From Sulfodiicoccus acidiphilus (GTDB taxonomy: Archaea; Thermoproteota; Thermoprotei_A; Sulfolobales; Sulfolobaceae): a stretch of 64,000 nt of DNA. Below, one piece after another: positions 3,205 through 9,494 of the stretch. The first letter of the stretch is position 1. Each line of letters starts with the position of its first letter. Below the pieces are notes generated by a model that was not told where the DNA came from, did no database searches, and saw only the letters and a list, made by a program, of their open reading frames with translations. Both the position numbers and the translations under genes were made by a program. The stretch spans positions 620,001-684,000 of the forward strand of contig NZ_AP018553.1 in NCBI RefSeq assembly GCF_003967175.1. Reading direction: 5' to 3'.

Positions 3205-3213
3205 GTATAAAAG
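3205..3213 (+). promoter_or_regulatory. TATA box of the tusA operon
   Basis: GTATAAAAG lies about 34 nt before the ATG at 3243, so the transcript would have a leader of only a few bases. It separates the cytochrome operon from the following sulfur genes. Confidence 0.6.
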
Positions 3214-3242: not shown

Positions 3243-3470
3243 ATGGAAAAAACAGTAGACGCTTCTGGGACGATATGTCCCTATCCCATAATGCTGTTGA
3301 GTAGGGCGGTTAGGGAAGCTCGACCAGGAGACGTCATAAAGGTAGTGGCGACGGATCCTGCGTTCGCGCGGGACGTGAAGTCCTGGACTAAGAGCACAGG
3401 AAACGAGTTACTAGCACTCGAAGAGGGCGAAGGAAAGGTCGTTGCGCTTGTGAGGAAGGTGGGAAGATGA
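3243..3470 (+). CDS. tusA: TusA/SirA-family sulfur carrier protein
   Basis: Small sulfur-relay protein of 75 residues. The family-defining CPxP motif is present as CPYP near residues 11-14; its cysteine carries persulfide or thiosulfonate sulfur in the cytoplasm. In Sulfolobales, TusA proteins work with DsrE and heterodisulfide-reductase-like complexes in sulfur oxidation. The ATG at 3243 is preferred over an in-frame TTG at 3234 because of the TATA spacing. The stop overlaps the ATG of the next gene by four bases (ATGA), arguing for coupled translation with the SelD-like protein. Confidence 0.9.
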   Translation: MEKTVDASGTICPYPIMLLSRAVREARPGDVIKVVATDPAFARDVKSWTKSTGNELLALEEGEGKVVALVRKVGR

Positions 3471-4888
3471 GCGAAGCAGTACTCAGGGAGAAGTTCAGGA
3501 GGAACGTCTCGGTTTACAAGTCGCTCGGGGTTAACCCGATGTCGTTGGCTACCGGTTGCTCGGTGAAGGTGGATTTGGTGTCGGTCCTCTATCCAGCGAT
3601 CTCCACCCTAAGAGGAAAACTAGAGAAGATGAAAATAGCGCCCAGGAGGGATGCCTACGTTTTCCCAGCTACGGAGGTGGAGGTATTGGAGAGGAGGATC
3701 TATGGTCTGGACCTAAGAGAGGAGGACGTGGAAGACCTAAGGCGACTCAGGCCAGCGCGTGCGGTCGTGCTCTCCCAGGTGAGTCAAGAGTTGGCAGGAT
3801 CGGCGGAAAAGTTCTCCCAGGTGGTGGAAAGGGTGTATTCGAAGGTGGCCGACGCCTCGCCTGGATTAGAAGTAGGAAAGGGGCACTCCATTGTGACTAC
3901 TGACGAGAAGGCTCAGTTCTTTATCTTCGATTTCGTCAAGCAGGAAGGTAGTGAACTCCAGTCGCTCACCGTTGCTAACAACGACACTATACAGGTGATC
4001 GACCCAACGGAGGAGCCTGGTGACTACCGGCAGTCGGCTATAGCAGTTGGGAACTCACTCAACGACCTCTACGCTCTAGGGGCGTGGAGGGAACTCAAGG
4101 TCTACCCAGTGATAGATGCCCCTACCGAGGAGCTCAGAGGTAAGATAGAGGTAAACTACGAGAGGTACGTGGAGGAGGTGGGAGGAGTTGTAGTTGGCAC
4201 CCCCCAACCCCACACCGGAACTCTACTGATGGGTGCCACGGTAGTGGCGAGAATGAGCAAGAAGCCACCCTTTTTCTTCGATCAAATCAAGGAGGGAATG
4301 GAGATTATGATAACAAGACCTATGGGTGACCTCGCCCCGATAAACGTCTACATGGTTTCCATGATGGACCAAGATCTGGTTAATGAGTTGAAGTCGTTCC
4401 ACATGACCGTGGAGGACGTAGCGAGGGTTAAGGAGCAGGTGTTGGAGACGCTGAAGGTCCCTAACTTACCGGCGGCCAAGGCCATAGAGGAATTCCTCCC
4501 CGCATTGGACGAAGAGTTCGATCCCTACAAACACATAGCAGCTACTACGGATGTGAGCGGGCCTGGAGTTTACGTGATAAGGGAGCTCGCCGAGCTTGCA
4601 CATGCGGAGATAGAGCTCTGGGACGTACCGCTCACCTCCCCCGAGCTTAGCGAGTTCGCCACTAGGAACTTCATAATACCCAACGGCACGTCAGGTACCA
4701 ACGGCAGTTTAGTGATAGTGGCCTCTTCAAGGGTGCTGGACGAACTCGAGGGGAGGTTGAAGGGTGCCTACCAGCCGGTTAGGATAGGAAAGGTGAAGGG
4801 GAGGGGAGAGCCGTTGGTAGTGGCTCCCAGGAAGCTGGCTAACTACGTGATGGCAGAGTCCTACTTGAAGGGGTTCGAACTGAAGTGA
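3467..4888 (+). CDS. SelD-related putative sulfur metabolism protein
   Basis: Protein of 473 residues related to selenophosphate synthetase (PurM/SelD ATP-binding fold). It keeps the catalytic Cys-x-x-Lys near the N-terminus (Cys31, Lys34) and a SelD-like nucleotide-binding stretch around VGNSLNDLYALG. About 110 residues not seen in SelD lie between the CxxK motif and the first ATP-binding strand. No other selenium genes are in the window, and Sulfolobales generally lack selenoprotein synthesis, so selenium is unlikely to be the substrate. Its four-base overlaps with tusA upstream and an acylphosphatase downstream suggest that it activates sulfur delivered by TusA, perhaps as thiophosphate. 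That function is my inference; the family assignment is firmer. Confidence 0.8.
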   Translation: MSEAVLREKFRRNVSVYKSLGVNPMSLATGCSVKVDLVSVLYPAISTLRGKLEKMKIAPRRDAYVFPATEVEVLERRIYGLDLREEDVEDLRRLRPARAVVLSQVSQELAGSAEKFSQVVERVYSKVADASPGLEVGKGHSIVTTDEKAQFFIFDFVKQEGSELQSLTVANNDTIQVIDPTEEPGDYRQSAIAVGNSLNDLYALGAWRELKVYPVIDAPTEELRGKIEVNYERYVEEVGGVVVGTPQPHTGTLLMGATVVARMSKKPPFFFDQIKEGMEIMITRPMGDLAPINVYMVSMMDQDLVNELKSFHMTVEDVARVKEQVLETLKVPNLPAAKAIEEFLPALDEEFDPYKHIAATTDVSGPGVYVIRELAELAHAEIELWDVPLTSPELSEFATRNFIIPNGTSGTNGSLVIVASSRVLDELEGRLKGAYQPVRIGKVKGRGEPLVVAPRKLANYVMAESYLKGFELK

Positions 4889-5157
4889 GAGCTAAACGCG
4901 TAGTGCTCAAGGGCGAAGTTCAGGGAATAGGTTTCAGGGCCTGGCTCGCAAGGAGGGCCAGGGCCTTGGGACTCCTAGGCTACGTGGAGAACGTGGGGAA
5001 GGACGTAGTGATAGTGGCTAGTGGAAACGTAGAGCCACTGATAGATGCCGCGAGGAGGTATGAATATGCGTCAGTGAGGGAGGTGGAGGTTGAGGACTTA
5101 GAGGTGAGATCATTACCCCCTTTTACTGTTAAATTCAGCGAGTACGAACTCAGTTGA
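4885..5157 (+). CDS. Acylphosphatase
   Basis: Acylphosphatase of 90 residues, the normal length. The phosphate-binding motif GEVQGIGFR near residues 10-18 contains the catalytic arginine, and the substrate-positioning asparagine falls in YVENVGKD (the usual G-x-V-x-N is slightly altered). The family hydrolyses carboxyl phosphates such as acetyl phosphate or 1,3-bisphosphoglycerate in the cytoplasm. The GTG start overlaps the SelD-like stop by four bases, making it the third member of a coupled trio. A role in clearing a mixed phosphate made by the upstream enzyme is possible but unproven. Confidence 0.85.
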   Translation: MRAKRVVLKGEVQGIGFRAWLARRARALGLLGYVENVGKDVVIVASGNVEPLIDAARRYEYASVREVEVEDLEVRSLPPFTVKFSEYELS

Positions 5158-5394: not shown

Positions 5395-5686
5395 TCTTAA
5401 AACGTGAGTGGAGGTAGACCACCAGCGAGGACGAATGGCCCCCTTCCACTCCAACACCAGTTCCCAGACTACGTGTCGAGACAGTTAAACGCAGCGACCT
5501 TCACCTAGACGCCCGAAAGGGGAGGGTCAGCTAAGTCACGCCTCCGTCCCAACCGTTGGCCAGAGGCGGGTGAAAGGGATCGCGCACACGTCCAAATACG
5601 CTGGACGACGCTCGGTACCCGTGGGGCGCCCCACCCTCGTGGGGTCGCGAAGTAGGAAGCACCTCCGTAAGTGGTAGTGGTTCACA
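5395..5686 (-). repeat. Left copy of ~290 bp inverted repeat
   Basis: This stretch is the reverse complement of 7910-8202, with about one visible mismatch (near 5617). It is GC-rich, has no good ORF, and contains a perfect 14-bp palindrome (GTGGGGCGCCCCAC) inside a larger hairpin. Its outer end reaches into the tauE coding region and supplies that gene's stop codon. It is probably a miniature mobile element or a duplicated structured RNA. I see no clear target-site duplication or long terminal inverted repeats. Confidence 0.85.
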
Positions 5687-6533
5687 AAAGAGCTGAGATC
5701 GCGTAGAAGTTCTGGTACATTATGTAGAAGGCTACAGCAATGACGACTAAAGCGAAGAGCCTCTTTAGAGTCACGTTGGGTAGACCACTGGCGAGTCTTG
5801 TCCCGACGTAGCCTCCCACTAGACCTCCCATTAAGTAGAGGAAGGCAACTTCCAGACTAAGCTCACCGAAGAGAGCGTAAGTCGCAGCACTAGTGACTCC
5901 AAACGTTCCTACTGCCATCAACGAAGTCCCAATGGCCCTTATCATGGTCAGGCCAGCGCTGTACATCAGGGCGGGGACTATGAGGAAACCTCCTCCAATT
6001 CCGAAGACTCCTGACAGGACACCCACTGCGAATCCGGCGGGGATAACCCTAACTAGCCTAGATGTGGTGACCTTGGGGCCGGCTGTAACCCTCTCCTCTA
6101 ACTCCCTCACCCCAGCAGACTTGCTCTTCAACATAGTGAGGGCTATCCCTATCATCACGAAACTGAACATGAAGAGAAGGAGACCTCCCCCTACGAGGTG
6201 ACCGACGTACGCTCCCGTCACGGCCCCCGCAGCTCCAGGTAGAGAGAACGCGACACCGTTCCTGAGGCTCACATTACCTTTCCTGTAGTGCATGAAGGAG
6301 TTCAAGTAGGCGTTCAATCCCACTGACAAAGCAGTAGTACCTATCACGAGGTGATCTATGTAGGACTCCGCGGCGCTGTGAGGGGGAGCTTCGTAGGCTA
6401 GGCCCACGAAGTAGAGGAGAAGAGGTATAGCTAGTATCGACCCTCCTCCACCTATGAGGCCCAAACTAAAGCCTACGAGTACCCCTGATACTACGGCCAG
6501 TAACGCCTGAATCAAGCTCAACTCTACGTACAT
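5682..6533 (-). CDS. Sulfite exporter TauE/SafE-family membrane protein
   Basis: Permease of about 283 residues with two repeats of four hydrophobic helices, each opening with the glycine-rich motif of the family (GLIGGGGSILAIP near the N-terminus, GVFGIGGGFLIVP in the second half). The family moves sulfur oxyanions or organosulfonates across the membrane. An in-frame ATG 51 bases further upstream would add 17 residues, but ATG 6533 lies 27 nt from a TATA box and is preferred as a leaderless start. It is divergent from doxDA, so sulfite or thiosulfate export or uptake fits. The stop codon is contributed by the left inverted repeat, implying that the repeat landed at the 3' end of the gene. 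Confidence 0.85.
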   Translation of the reverse strand: MYVELSLIQALLAVVSGVLVGFSLGLIGGGGSILAIPLLLYFVGLAYEAPPHSAAESYIDHLVIGTTALSVGLNAYLNSFMHYRKGNVSLRNGVAFSLPGAAGAVTGAYVGHLVGGGLLLFMFSFVMIGIALTMLKSKSAGVRELEERVTAGPKVTTSRLVRVIPAGFAVGVLSGVFGIGGGFLIVPALMYSAGLTMIRAIGTSLMAVGTFGVTSAATYALFGELSLEVAFLYLMGGLVGGYVGTRLASGLPNVTLKRLFALVVIAVAFYIMYQNFYAISALL

Positions 6534-6554
6534 AAGCAGCTTTGAGTTCACTCG

Positions 6555-6565
6555 CTTTAAAAAAA
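6555..6565 (-). promoter_or_regulatory. TATA box of tauE
   Basis: On the minus strand this reads TTTTTTTAAAG, centred 27 nt upstream of the ATG at 6533. That is the spacing expected for a leaderless archaeal transcript, and it decides the start. Confidence 0.6.
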
Positions 6566-6714
6566 CTTTCTTTTCATAGTTCAAAACAAACTAGTTAGAG
6601 AACTTCCCTACTCCCTCTGTCATACAGTTTTACCTTTAGATGCCAGCTAAGAGCCTACGGGATATTCTTTGAGTTAGAGGTATAGAAAGTCCCTACAAGA
6701 TTTTTGAAAACAAA

Positions 6715-6722
6715 CATATATC
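6715..6722 (+). promoter_or_regulatory. TATA box of doxDA
   Basis: CATATATC about 33 nt before the doxD GTG. A GTGGTGA sequence just before the start may serve as ribosome-binding site on a very short leader. Confidence 0.5.
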
Positions 6723-6750
6723 TAACTCATGTATAAGTGTAGAGTGGTGA

Positions 6751-7302
6751 GTGAAAGTGAGTAAAGTGAAGTTGAACGAGAGTAACTCCACTCGCATGGA
6801 ATACCTGTGGCCGCTCAGGTTCGCGGTTGGATGGATGTTCCTAGATGGTGGACTTAGGAAGGCCGTGCTCAAGCCAGCTAAACTGAACCCTTTATCTGCC
6901 TCCTTCGTAGGGGGTAAACTCGTGAACTTCTTACCTCACTCGGGCCCATTCAAACCCTTCCTTCTTATGACGTTGGAGAACAGGCCGCTAGACGTGGCGT
7001 TCCTGACAATTTTTTCCTATTTAGAGATCGTAGTTGGGCTCTTCTTGGTGTTAGGAGTACTGACTAGGTTGGCAGCTTTCGGTGCTCTCTTGATGTCAGC
7101 CGGCTTCGCTCCTGCCTACTGGCTTGGTTCGACCTGTGAGGACGAATGGCAAATAGGTGCGTTGTTGGTGGCGGGTAGCCTCGTTTTAATGCTCACTGCC
7201 TCCGGCAGAACGTGGGGGGTTGACTCTCTCATATATAAGAAGTTCGGAGACAGGGCATTATCGAGGAGGATACCTGTCCTGAAGTGGATAAAGTTGTGGT
7301 GA
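6751..7302 (+). CDS. doxD: Thiosulfate:quinone oxidoreductase, DoxD subunit
   Basis: Membrane subunit of 183 residues with four hydrophobic segments and the DoxD pattern ([11 protein letters not shown] at the first helix; [12 protein letters not shown] before the last). With DoxA it forms the enzyme that oxidises thiosulfate to tetrathionate and passes electrons to caldariella quinone at the outer face of the membrane. The length is close to the ~174 residues of the Acidianus protein. GTG 6751 was chosen from TATA spacing; GTG 6757 is an alternative. doxA follows after six bases. The pair sits between the inverted repeats. Confidence 0.9.
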
Positions 7303-7308
7303 TGTGGA

Positions 7309-7800
7309 ATGGAGAGAACCGTGATAGTCGGCATAGTGTTCGCATTAATAGCGGTCGGATGGATATTAGGTACGGGTCAGTGGGCCTACGGAAACGTGGT
7401 GGGGCCGCTAGTTAACTACTCCAAACTTCCTAAAGTCGAGGTACCTTACGTCAGTGCCGCTCCAACCACCGACGGCACGATTCTAACCCTGAACTTAACT
7501 GACGTTGACGGGCCAGACGCTTATCCAGCGTCCGTCGTCATGATCGAGATAGGGAACTCCACATGGCACATTTTCCTTAACTCCTCACAGTTGGCCAACT
7601 ACACCGTCGAGGTGCATCAGGCGCCTTGGAACGAAAACAAGAAGGACAGCGTCAACTGGTACTCGGGGTTCGAGATCCCCCTAGGAAGCGAGGGACAGTT
7701 CGTCCTTCACCTTCCATTTAGACTCTCCCCGGGCAGTTACGAGTTGACGCTCTACACTCCAGCAGTGAAGCCTGTGACAGTGAAGTTCACCTCGTCCTAA
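7309..7800 (+). CDS. doxA: Thiosulfate:quinone oxidoreductase, DoxA subunit
   Basis: Protein of 163 residues with one N-terminal membrane anchor (about 5-25) and an extracytoplasmic beta-rich domain with several Asn-x-Ser/Thr sites, as expected for DoxA. It forms the second subunit of thiosulfate:quinone oxidoreductase with DoxD. The GAPW/SWY signatures of the family are only partly recognisable by eye ([17 protein letters not shown]). Gene order and spacing to doxD support the call strongly. It is the last gene before the right inverted repeat. Confidence 0.88.
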
Positions 7801-7909
7801 TACGCAGGTAAAAGCCGTTTCTTTTTTGGAACGATTATCAATTCATTTTGATTCGAATGAAAATCCAAAACGGGCTGGAGTTAGGTTCTCGTTATTCAAG
7901 ACAGTAGGG

Positions 7910-8202
7910 TGTGAACCACTACCACTTACGGAGGTGCTTCCTACTTCGCGACCCCACGAGGGTGGGGCGCCCCACGGGCACCGAGCGTCGTCCAGCGTAT
8001 TTGGACGTGTGCGCGATCCCTTTCACCCGCCTCTGGCCAACGGTTGGGACGGAGGCGTGACTTAGCTGACCCTCCCCTTTCGGGCGTCTAGGTGAAGGTC
8101 GCTGCGTTTAACTGTCTCGACACGTAGTCTGGGAACTGGTGTTGGAGTGGAAGGGGGCCATTCGTCCTCGCTGGTGGTCTACCTCCACTCACGTTTCAAG
8201 AG
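7910..8202 (+). repeat. Right copy of ~290 bp inverted repeat
   Basis: Near-identical reverse complement of 5395-5686. Together the copies bracket tauE and doxDA. The copy contains CCCCAC-GAGG-GTGGGG followed by GCCCCAC, which allows alternative hairpins. The rest of the gap between doxA and the PLP enzyme (7801-7909 and 8203-8327) shows nothing except a T-rich promoter stretch near 8296-8304. Confidence 0.85.
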
Positions 8203-8327
8203 AGATCCCTGCACCTTTCGTTTAGAACGATGACATAAGACGGTTGTGGGGAAGCGTCGAGGTCTTTATGGGTATTGATTAATATGGTAACTGTAACTTT
8301 TTTTGTTCCCACGGACCACTGAGTCCC

Positions 8328-9494
8328 ATGAGAGGTTTCAACACTAGGGCCGTCCATGCAGGTGAACTGGAGGACCCTAGGTTCGGTAACGTCGTCACTC
8401 CGATCTTCCAAACTTCAACTTTCGTTCAGCCGAACTCTAGCCAAGAGCCGTACCTTGATCACGCCACAGGTGGTCCTTTCCTCTACACTAGGTGGGGGAA
8501 CCCAACCCTGCAATCGTTGGAGGAAAAGTATGCGTCGTTGGAGGGGGCCCGGCACGGACTCTCCTTCTCGTCTGGAATGGCCGCCATCTCCGCTGCGGTA
8601 CTTTCTAAGGTAAGGGAGGGAGACAGGATCCTCTCTGTTGCCGAGCTTTACGGACAGACCTTCCACCTCTTCTCTCACGTCCTTCCTAGGTATGGGGTGA
8701 AAGTCGACTTCCTAGAGACTGACGAACTCAACAAGTTAGAGGTTAGGTTAAAGGAGTACAAGCTGATTTACCTAGAATCCATAACCAACCCGCTCCTCAA
8801 GGTGACTGACGTCAGGGGGATATCGAAGTTGGCCTCGGAGAATGACGTCCCTGTGGTAGTTGATGCTACGTTCGCCTCTCCGTTCAACCAGAGGCCTCTG
8901 GAACTGGGGGCCGAGGTGGTAGTTCACAGCGCTACCAAATACATCTCCGGACACAGCGACGTAATAGTAGGAGTGTCTGGAACGAATTCCGACCAAACCT
9001 TCAAGGATCTCGTTGGGTTCAGGAAGGACGTAGGAGGCTCTCCAGATCCTCACCAGGCCTATCTGACACTGAGGGGAATGAAGACGATAGGTCTCAGGGT
9101 GGAGAGGCAGAACTCGAACGCAGGGAAGGTAGCGACTCTACTGAGCCAGAGCACGAAGGTGAGGAAAGTGCACTACCCGGGGCTCCGAGACTCTCCTTAT
9201 AGGGAAGTCGCAGCTAAGAACCTCTCCGGTTTCGGGGGGATGGTGTCGTTCGAGCTGAGGGACGAGGACTGCACCAAACGTTTCCTCAAGACCCTCACCA
9301 TACCCCGGAGTGCTCCGAGCTTAGGGGGAGTGGAAAGTCTGATCACTAGGCCGGTGGAGACTAGCCACTCCTCCCTCACGAAAGAGGAGAGGGAGAAACA
9401 GGGAATTTCGGAGTCTCTGGTGAGGTTCTCTGCAGGCATAGAGGATCCTGAGGACCTGCTCGAAGACTTCCAAAGGGCCTTGAGCTCCTGTTAA
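8328..9494 (+). CDS. Cys/Met-metabolism PLP enzyme (cystathionine gamma-synthase/lyase family)
   Basis: Cytoplasmic trans-sulfuration enzyme of 388 residues, full family length. The PLP-binding lysine is Lys204 in HSATKYISGH, the phosphate-binding loop is SSGMAA at 81-86, and the active-site tyrosine lies in YTRWGNPT near 53-60. Family members make or break C-S bonds of cystathionine, homocysteine or methionine; sequence alone does not separate gamma-synthase, gamma-lyase and O-acetylhomoserine sulfhydrylase. ATG 8328 lies 27 nt after a T-rich TATA-like stretch, so the transcript is probably leaderless. It stands alone, transcribed away from the repeat. Confidence 0.9.
   Translation: MRGFNTRAVHAGELEDPRFGNVVTPIFQTSTFVQPNSSQEPYLDHATGGPFLYTRWGNPTLQSLEEKYASLEGARHGLSFSSGMAAISAAVLSKVREGDRILSVAELYGQTFHLFSHVLPRYGVKVDFLETDELNKLEVRLKEYKLIYLESITNPLLKVTDVRGISKLASENDVPVVVDATFASPFNQRPLELGAEVVVHSATKYISGHSDVIVGVSGTNSDQTFKDLVGFRKDVGGSPDPHQAYLTLRGMKTIGLRVERQNSNAGKVATLLSQSTKVRKVHYPGLRDSPYREVAAKNLSGFGGMVSFELRDEDCTKRFLKTLTIPRSAPSLGGVESLITRPVETSHSSLTKEEREKQGISESLVRFSAGIEDPEDLLEDFQRALSSC

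Follow-up and report, generated by a model that had tools for sequence, protein, structure and literature searches.

What does a protein resembling selenophosphate synthetase (SelD) do in Sulfodiicoccus acidiphilus, where its gene is enclosed between those of a TusA-like sulfur carrier and an acylphosphatase? The three genes lie in a window, meaning here the whole 64,000-nucleotide stretch of contig NZ_AP018553.1 that was analysed (Table 1). The gene order, the coordinates and both 4-bp overlaps claimed in the preliminary description were all confirmed by the sequence: ATGA at 3467-3470 joins the tusA-like and SelD-related genes, and GTGA at 4885-4888 joins the latter to the acylphosphatase gene. 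Because a TATAAAA element precedes tusA, the trio appears to have a promoter of its own after soxC, separate from the soxL2-soxC unit. The base composition of the trio is ordinary for the host genome. The link to respiratory cytochromes proposed earlier proved to be one of position only, as in no other surveyed locus is the SelD-related gene accompanied by the two cytochrome gene clusters. Downstream of the trio, positions 5682-9494 of the window hold further sulfur-related genes: a TauE-type exporter on the minus strand, 524 bp 3' of the trio, doxD and doxA, which code for thiosulfate:quinone oxidoreductase, and a cystathionine gamma-lyase-like gene.

Table 1. Coordinates of the trio and related features. 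The first four rows are positions in the window; the others carry the identifier of their locus or genome.
Feature	Location	Strand	Characteristics
TATA-box-like element	3206..3212	+	TATAAAA; putative trio promoter, from direct sequence reading
tusA-like sulfur carrier gene	3243..3470	+	75 aa; CPYP (Cys12); PF01206
SelD-related gene	3467..4888	+	473 aa; NF038049 (SelD_rel_HyperS); Cys31-x-x-Lys34, NND(171-173), N196/D200 and D362 invariant
Acylphosphatase gene	4885..5157	+	90 aa; GTG start; PF00708; Arg (GFR) and Asn (GYVEN) kept
Second, canonical acylphosphatase gene of the same genome	G000:C1:1034052-1034300		
CX5R phosphatase genes	L061:3238-3729; L067:7937-8416; L058:4440-4919		small, dual-specificity type
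Acylphosphatase-TusA pair	L115:5093-5604		genome G128
Degenerate SelD-related genes	L086:314-1756; L087:9265-10629; L088:9115-10539; L089:9005-10306; L090:9740-11056		family f51

The middle gene is a member of a family known since 2014 and biochemically uncharacterized. Its product matched the NCBIfam model NF038049, 'SelD-related putative sulfur metabolism protein', with 655.2 bits (cut-off 250) over residues 8-471. No family was matched in a Pfam search, and the matches to true SelD models were weak (4.8e-10 and 1.7e-7), missing the equivalog cut-offs (38.8 bits versus 291 and 30.8 versus 125). A PDB search with the single sequence gave zero matches; SelD was reached only by a profile of 26 family members, which matched structures of human selenophosphate synthetase 1 (SEPHS1) at 3.5e-7. 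A structure prediction made from two sequences (pLDDT 36) was too poor for use. The Cys-x-x-Lys pair noted earlier was borne out, since neither Cys31 nor Lys34 varies in the family alignment; Asn171-Asn172-Asp173, Asn196, Asp200 and Asp362 are likewise invariant. A pattern scan found the CxxK, NNDT and DVTG motifs in 52/52 active members and N-x-x-x-D in 51 of them. Matching motifs were found in two archaeal true SelD proteins, one of them cut at the N-terminus (CSCK beside CSVK, NVTSD beside NSLND, DITGFG beside DVSGPG). The protein thus shares with selenide, water dikinase the PurM-like ATP-binding superfamily, the Cys-x-x-Lys pair, the Asn/Asp residues for metal and ATP, and a DxTGxG-type motif. 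Unlike SelD, it has an insertion after CxxK of about 92 residues relative to archaeal true SelD, somewhat shorter than the 110 or so first estimated; 139 residues separate the CxxK lysine from the aspartate of NND/LD, versus 47 in archaeal true SelD. Also, because the family-specific KGHSI and GTNG motifs are present and the GGHT of SelD is gone, the sequence suggests a different or modified acceptor site.

The family was described by Li and colleagues (2014; PMC4210487) in Sulfolobales and Thermoproteales and reported by them as absent from Desulfurococcales. SirA/TusA-like and Prx-like neighbours and an acylphosphatase fusion in Thermoproteales were reported, and thiophosphate synthesis was hypothesized, with an acyl-thiophosphate variant to account for the acylphosphatase (PMC4210487). 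The preliminary description had proposed an unrecognized pathway, which does not hold: that study already contains the family, its association with TusA(SirA), the fusion to acylphosphatase and the thiophosphate idea, and an NCBIfam model exists. It had also placed the family in SelD-related sulfur metabolism with an undescribed reaction, and this stands, as the neighbours are of sulfur type and no experiments on the family turned up in the papers searched for work after 2014. The window's protein shares with the 2014 family its NF038049 membership, catalytic residues, TusA/SirA neighbour and acylphosphatase association; the acylphosphatase is fused in Thermoproteales, whereas in the window it is a separate, overlapping gene. 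What the present survey adds is a wider distribution, covering many further families in the order and phylum of GTDB, a two-carrier pattern with a CPYP-specific carrier, a link to a YedE/YeeE-type transporter, the finding that a molybdenum role is unsupported, and degenerate relatives beside sat-cysH.

Of the 147 genomes from the window's GTDB order, 38 have a match to NF038049 above its cut-off; 20 of these belong to the window's family, for which 22 genomes were included. A phylum sample that overlaps the order sample gave such a match in 53 genomes out of 379. A search of the genome contigs with the single SelD-related protein found only one relative. The gene is also present in Sulfolobus acidocaldarius, a control match in the survey and an organism for which genetic tools exist. 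Among the sampled genomes of the window's family, only G066 and G096 (genus g6) lack it; ATP sulfurylase is missing from both as well, although they have PF04143 and many TusA genes.

Altogether, 57 loci were examined, of which 52 have intact active sites and five are degenerate; 19 of the 52 belong to other Sulfolobaceae, which leaves 33. Across many Thermoproteota families, an acylphosphatase is adjacent or fused at 29 of these 33 loci, being the next gene in 19, fused in 10 (families f22 and f31) and neither in four. A TusA-family carrier lies immediately 5' on the same strand at 23 of the 33; it overlaps by 4 bp or sits within 6 bp in 18, and 11 share the window's 4-bp overlap. Chance is excluded by this recurrence and by the 11 identical overlaps. 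The trio is a real gene cassette, conserved widely in archaea, and a functional link among its three genes is supported. The upstream carriers have CPYP in 22 of 23 cases, the remaining one having a doubtful called start. At 13 loci a second TusA is found downstream, with CPxP and in no case CPYP; the upstream and downstream carriers are therefore of different types. The window's own carrier has the PF01206 domain (E 4.5e-21) and, as claimed from the start, CPYP, which satisfies the CPxP pattern. Its best NCBIfam model is TusA (54 bits, cut-off 78), ahead of YedF (22 bits, cut-off 79), both cut-offs being missed. For the upstream carriers as a set, the top-scoring model is YedF, with displayed scores under the cut-off.

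The linkage expected in other Sulfolobales was found only in part: families elsewhere in the GTDB order and in the phylum show it strongly, whereas in the 19 other Sulfolobaceae no acylphosphatase lies near the SelD-related gene. Since Sulfolobaceae retain the SelD-related gene without an adjoining acylphosphatase, the trio arrangement is not obligatory. Several of their loci carry tusA-like, SQR-like, DsrE and DUF1641 genes just 5' of the SelD-related gene. In a tree of 57 proteins, the window's protein and L003 share a group with trio loci from the families f5 and f6 (100/99), and the 19 Sulfolobaceae form a separate group (100/99). Forcing the window's protein and L003 into the Sulfolobaceae was rejected (AU p 0.015, somewhat optimistic because the group was named after inspection of the tree). 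Because the window's copy groups with loci from outside the Sulfolobaceae, the trio was probably acquired laterally and later adapted to the base composition of its host. L003 (JAFMDM010000113.1) is the nearest relative of the trio, at 74% identity; its record is labelled 'Euryarchaeota archaeon', which may be a binning error.

A further component emerged from the neighbourhoods. A Sulf_transp membrane protein (PF04143, YedE/YeeE-type) is encoded one or two genes from the SelD-related gene at 11 loci. Anywhere in the genome, PF04143 was found in 13 of 16 carriers of the SelD-related gene versus one of 28 non-carriers matched from the same families (Fisher p 1.4e-7, in a test that treats genomes of one genus as independent). 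Genome rows are non-independent samples and within-genus contrasts are the safest statistics; the contrast persists within genera g10 and g27. The sole non-carrier with PF04143 (G080) has a broken fragment, on a contig that also holds a TusA. In a wider, less controlled set the contrast was weaker (17/26 carriers versus 6/22 non-carriers). Several f6 genomes have the transporter far from the trio, so the co-occurrence goes beyond mere linkage, and the YedE/YeeE-type transporter is a likely missing partner of the trio. No PF04143 match was found in the window's own genome, where the TauE-type protein downstream of the trio may or may not act as a stand-in. The arrangement recalls the thiosulfate uptake system TsuA/TsuB (YeeE/YeeD), which likewise combines a Sulf_transp protein with conserved cysteine motifs and a TusA-like partner. 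Unlike that system, the transporter here is linked to a SelD-type ATPase, and the TsuA/TsuB models score under YedE/FdhT. The best model, matched by 9/9 members with the best E-values, is 'selenium metabolism membrane protein YedE/FdhT', with shown scores below the cut-off.

These matches raise the question of whether the element handled is selenium. YedE is reportedly almost confined to selenium users and lies next to SelD (PMC5322559), so that a divergent selenophosphate synthetase, together with YedE-type uptake and a carrier of YedF type, could supply selenium for an end use outside selenocysteine and selenouridine. The SelD catalytic residues retained in the family are consistent with this, as are the best models of the transporter and of the upstream carrier set, albeit at displayed scores below the cut-offs. 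The bacterial YedE-YedF-SelD neighbourhood (PMC5322559) brings together the same three component types. In the archaea, by contrast, the scores do not reach the curated cut-offs, the neighbourhood includes an acylphosphatase as well, the selenocysteine/selenouridine pathway is absent, and the window's copy has no adjoining transporter. Moreover, neither selenouridine synthase (above its cut-off) nor SepSecS was found in any of 69 carrier genomes, in a search that covered these two markers; SepSecS was present in two true-SelD control genomes. The third known selenium use has molybdenum hydroxylases as its substrate, and these enzymes are missing altogether from 13 carriers in the order. Genomes with the SelD-related gene, unlike those of true SelD, thus show none of the known selenium end uses searched. 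The neighbouring genes are sulfur-type ones (SQR-like, DsrE, TusA, rhodanese, CysH/Sat), and the window's carrier scores as TusA rather than YedF, in a genome without a YedE/YeeE match. A selenium module is accordingly unlikely, though a serious rival. That the trio is an unrecognized selenium-use or dual sulfur/selenium activation system, with its own acylphosphatase, in thermophilic archaea without selenocysteine or selenouridine, is rather doubtful.

The identification of the third gene as an acylphosphatase was sound: its product matches PF00708 at E 4.4e-14 (53 bits, cut-off 22.5) with the catalytic Arg and Asn intact. Since the genome has a canonical acylphosphatase elsewhere (Table 1), the trio's second copy is probably dedicated. 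The catalytic residues are kept in the linked and fused acylphosphatases, three of which (L065, L091 and L099) were flagged by pattern and found intact by eye. In a tree of 51 acylphosphatases, the fused ones form one group, and the separate linked ones may or may not share one origin. In three families a second phosphatase, of CX5R type, is found within the trio unit, 3' of the acylphosphatase.

The usual substrates of acylphosphatases are acyl phosphates, and the PurM/PurL/HypE superfamily includes ATP-dependent activations of carboxylates and amides. The SelD-related enzyme might therefore activate a carboxylate or amide on a sulfur-carrying substrate, with the acylphosphatase cleaving the acyl phosphate; the closest parallel would be HypF/HypE. 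Fusion of catalytically intact acylphosphatases to the enzyme in two families would fit. The catalytic Cys, however, is a trait of SelD that the 2014 study did not find in PurM, PurL, ThiL or HypE (PMC4210487), and sulfur carriers are often paired with the SelD-related gene, which makes such activation improbable.

Another candidate role is to provide the molybdenum cofactor of xanthine-dehydrogenase-type enzymes with its sulfido ligand, a sulfur counterpart to the trait of selenium-dependent molybdenum hydroxylases. About 10 Sulfolobaceae loci have a CoxL-type molybdenum hydroxylase gene beside the SelD-related gene, and in six of them (L034, L036, L038, L039, L041 and L044) the latter immediately precedes, on the same strand, genes of CoxM/CoxS/CoxL type. 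Outside the Sulfolobaceae, however, molybdenum hydroxylases do not track the SelD-related gene, being rarer in carriers (5/18 versus 49/107 non-carriers, p 0.20), and the 13 carrier genomes without any of them have already been mentioned. DMSO-reductase-type enzymes did not discriminate (15/16 carriers versus 26/28 non-carriers) and were dropped as a linked trait. Molybdenum-cofactor sulfuration is unsupported across the 147 genomes and very improbable.

The explanation preferred here, to which we give a probability of roughly one-half, is that the trio would be an ATP-dependent sulfur activation cassette fed by a TusA/YedF-like carrier. Sulfur is favoured as the element because the neighbours include SQR-like, DsrE and rhodanese genes, and CysH/Sat beside the degenerate relatives, and because none of the known selenium end uses searched was found. 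The CPYP-type carrier, accompanied in many relatives by a YedE/YeeE-type transporter, would hand sulfane sulfur to the SelD-related enzyme, which would hold Mg-ATP by its SelD-type residues. Cys31 and Lys34 could then move a phosphoryl group onto the sulfur, and the product would be thiophosphate or a thiophosphoryl species bound to the enzyme or the carrier. The trio's dedicated acylphosphatase may cleave a labile mixed phosphate, either an off-product or the spent donor. A final acceptor is presumed, and no conserved acceptor enzyme for thiophosphate was found in the survey. We know of no established role for thiophosphate as a biological sulfur donor comparable to that of selenophosphate for selenium; a SelD-type enzyme served by a sulfur carrier would be a natural place for one. 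The linkage map (CPYP carrier, acylphosphatase, transporter and second CPxP carrier) is a guide to which proteins to combine, with sulfur and selenium to be compared.

Some relatives depart from the common arrangement. In family f6 (L053, L054, L056, L057 and L062), the SelD-related gene adjoins a gene for a 385-393 aa cysteine-synthase-like PLP enzyme, mostly head-to-head. At L115, a trio-type acylphosphatase-TusA pair occurs in a genome with the SelD-related gene absent beside it and elsewhere, and is perhaps a remnant of the trio. Sulfate activation was rejected as a linked trait, since ATP sulfurylase showed no association with the SelD-related gene (8/16 carriers versus 15/28 non-carriers), despite the sat-cysH genes that flank the degenerate relatives. 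These relatives, from five large genomes of family f51, have CSNE or FSNE in place of CxxK and have lost NNDT, NSLND and DVTG. All five genes are head-to-head with cysH and sat (ATP sulfurylase), and their products are possibly a pseudoenzyme of assimilatory sulfate reduction.
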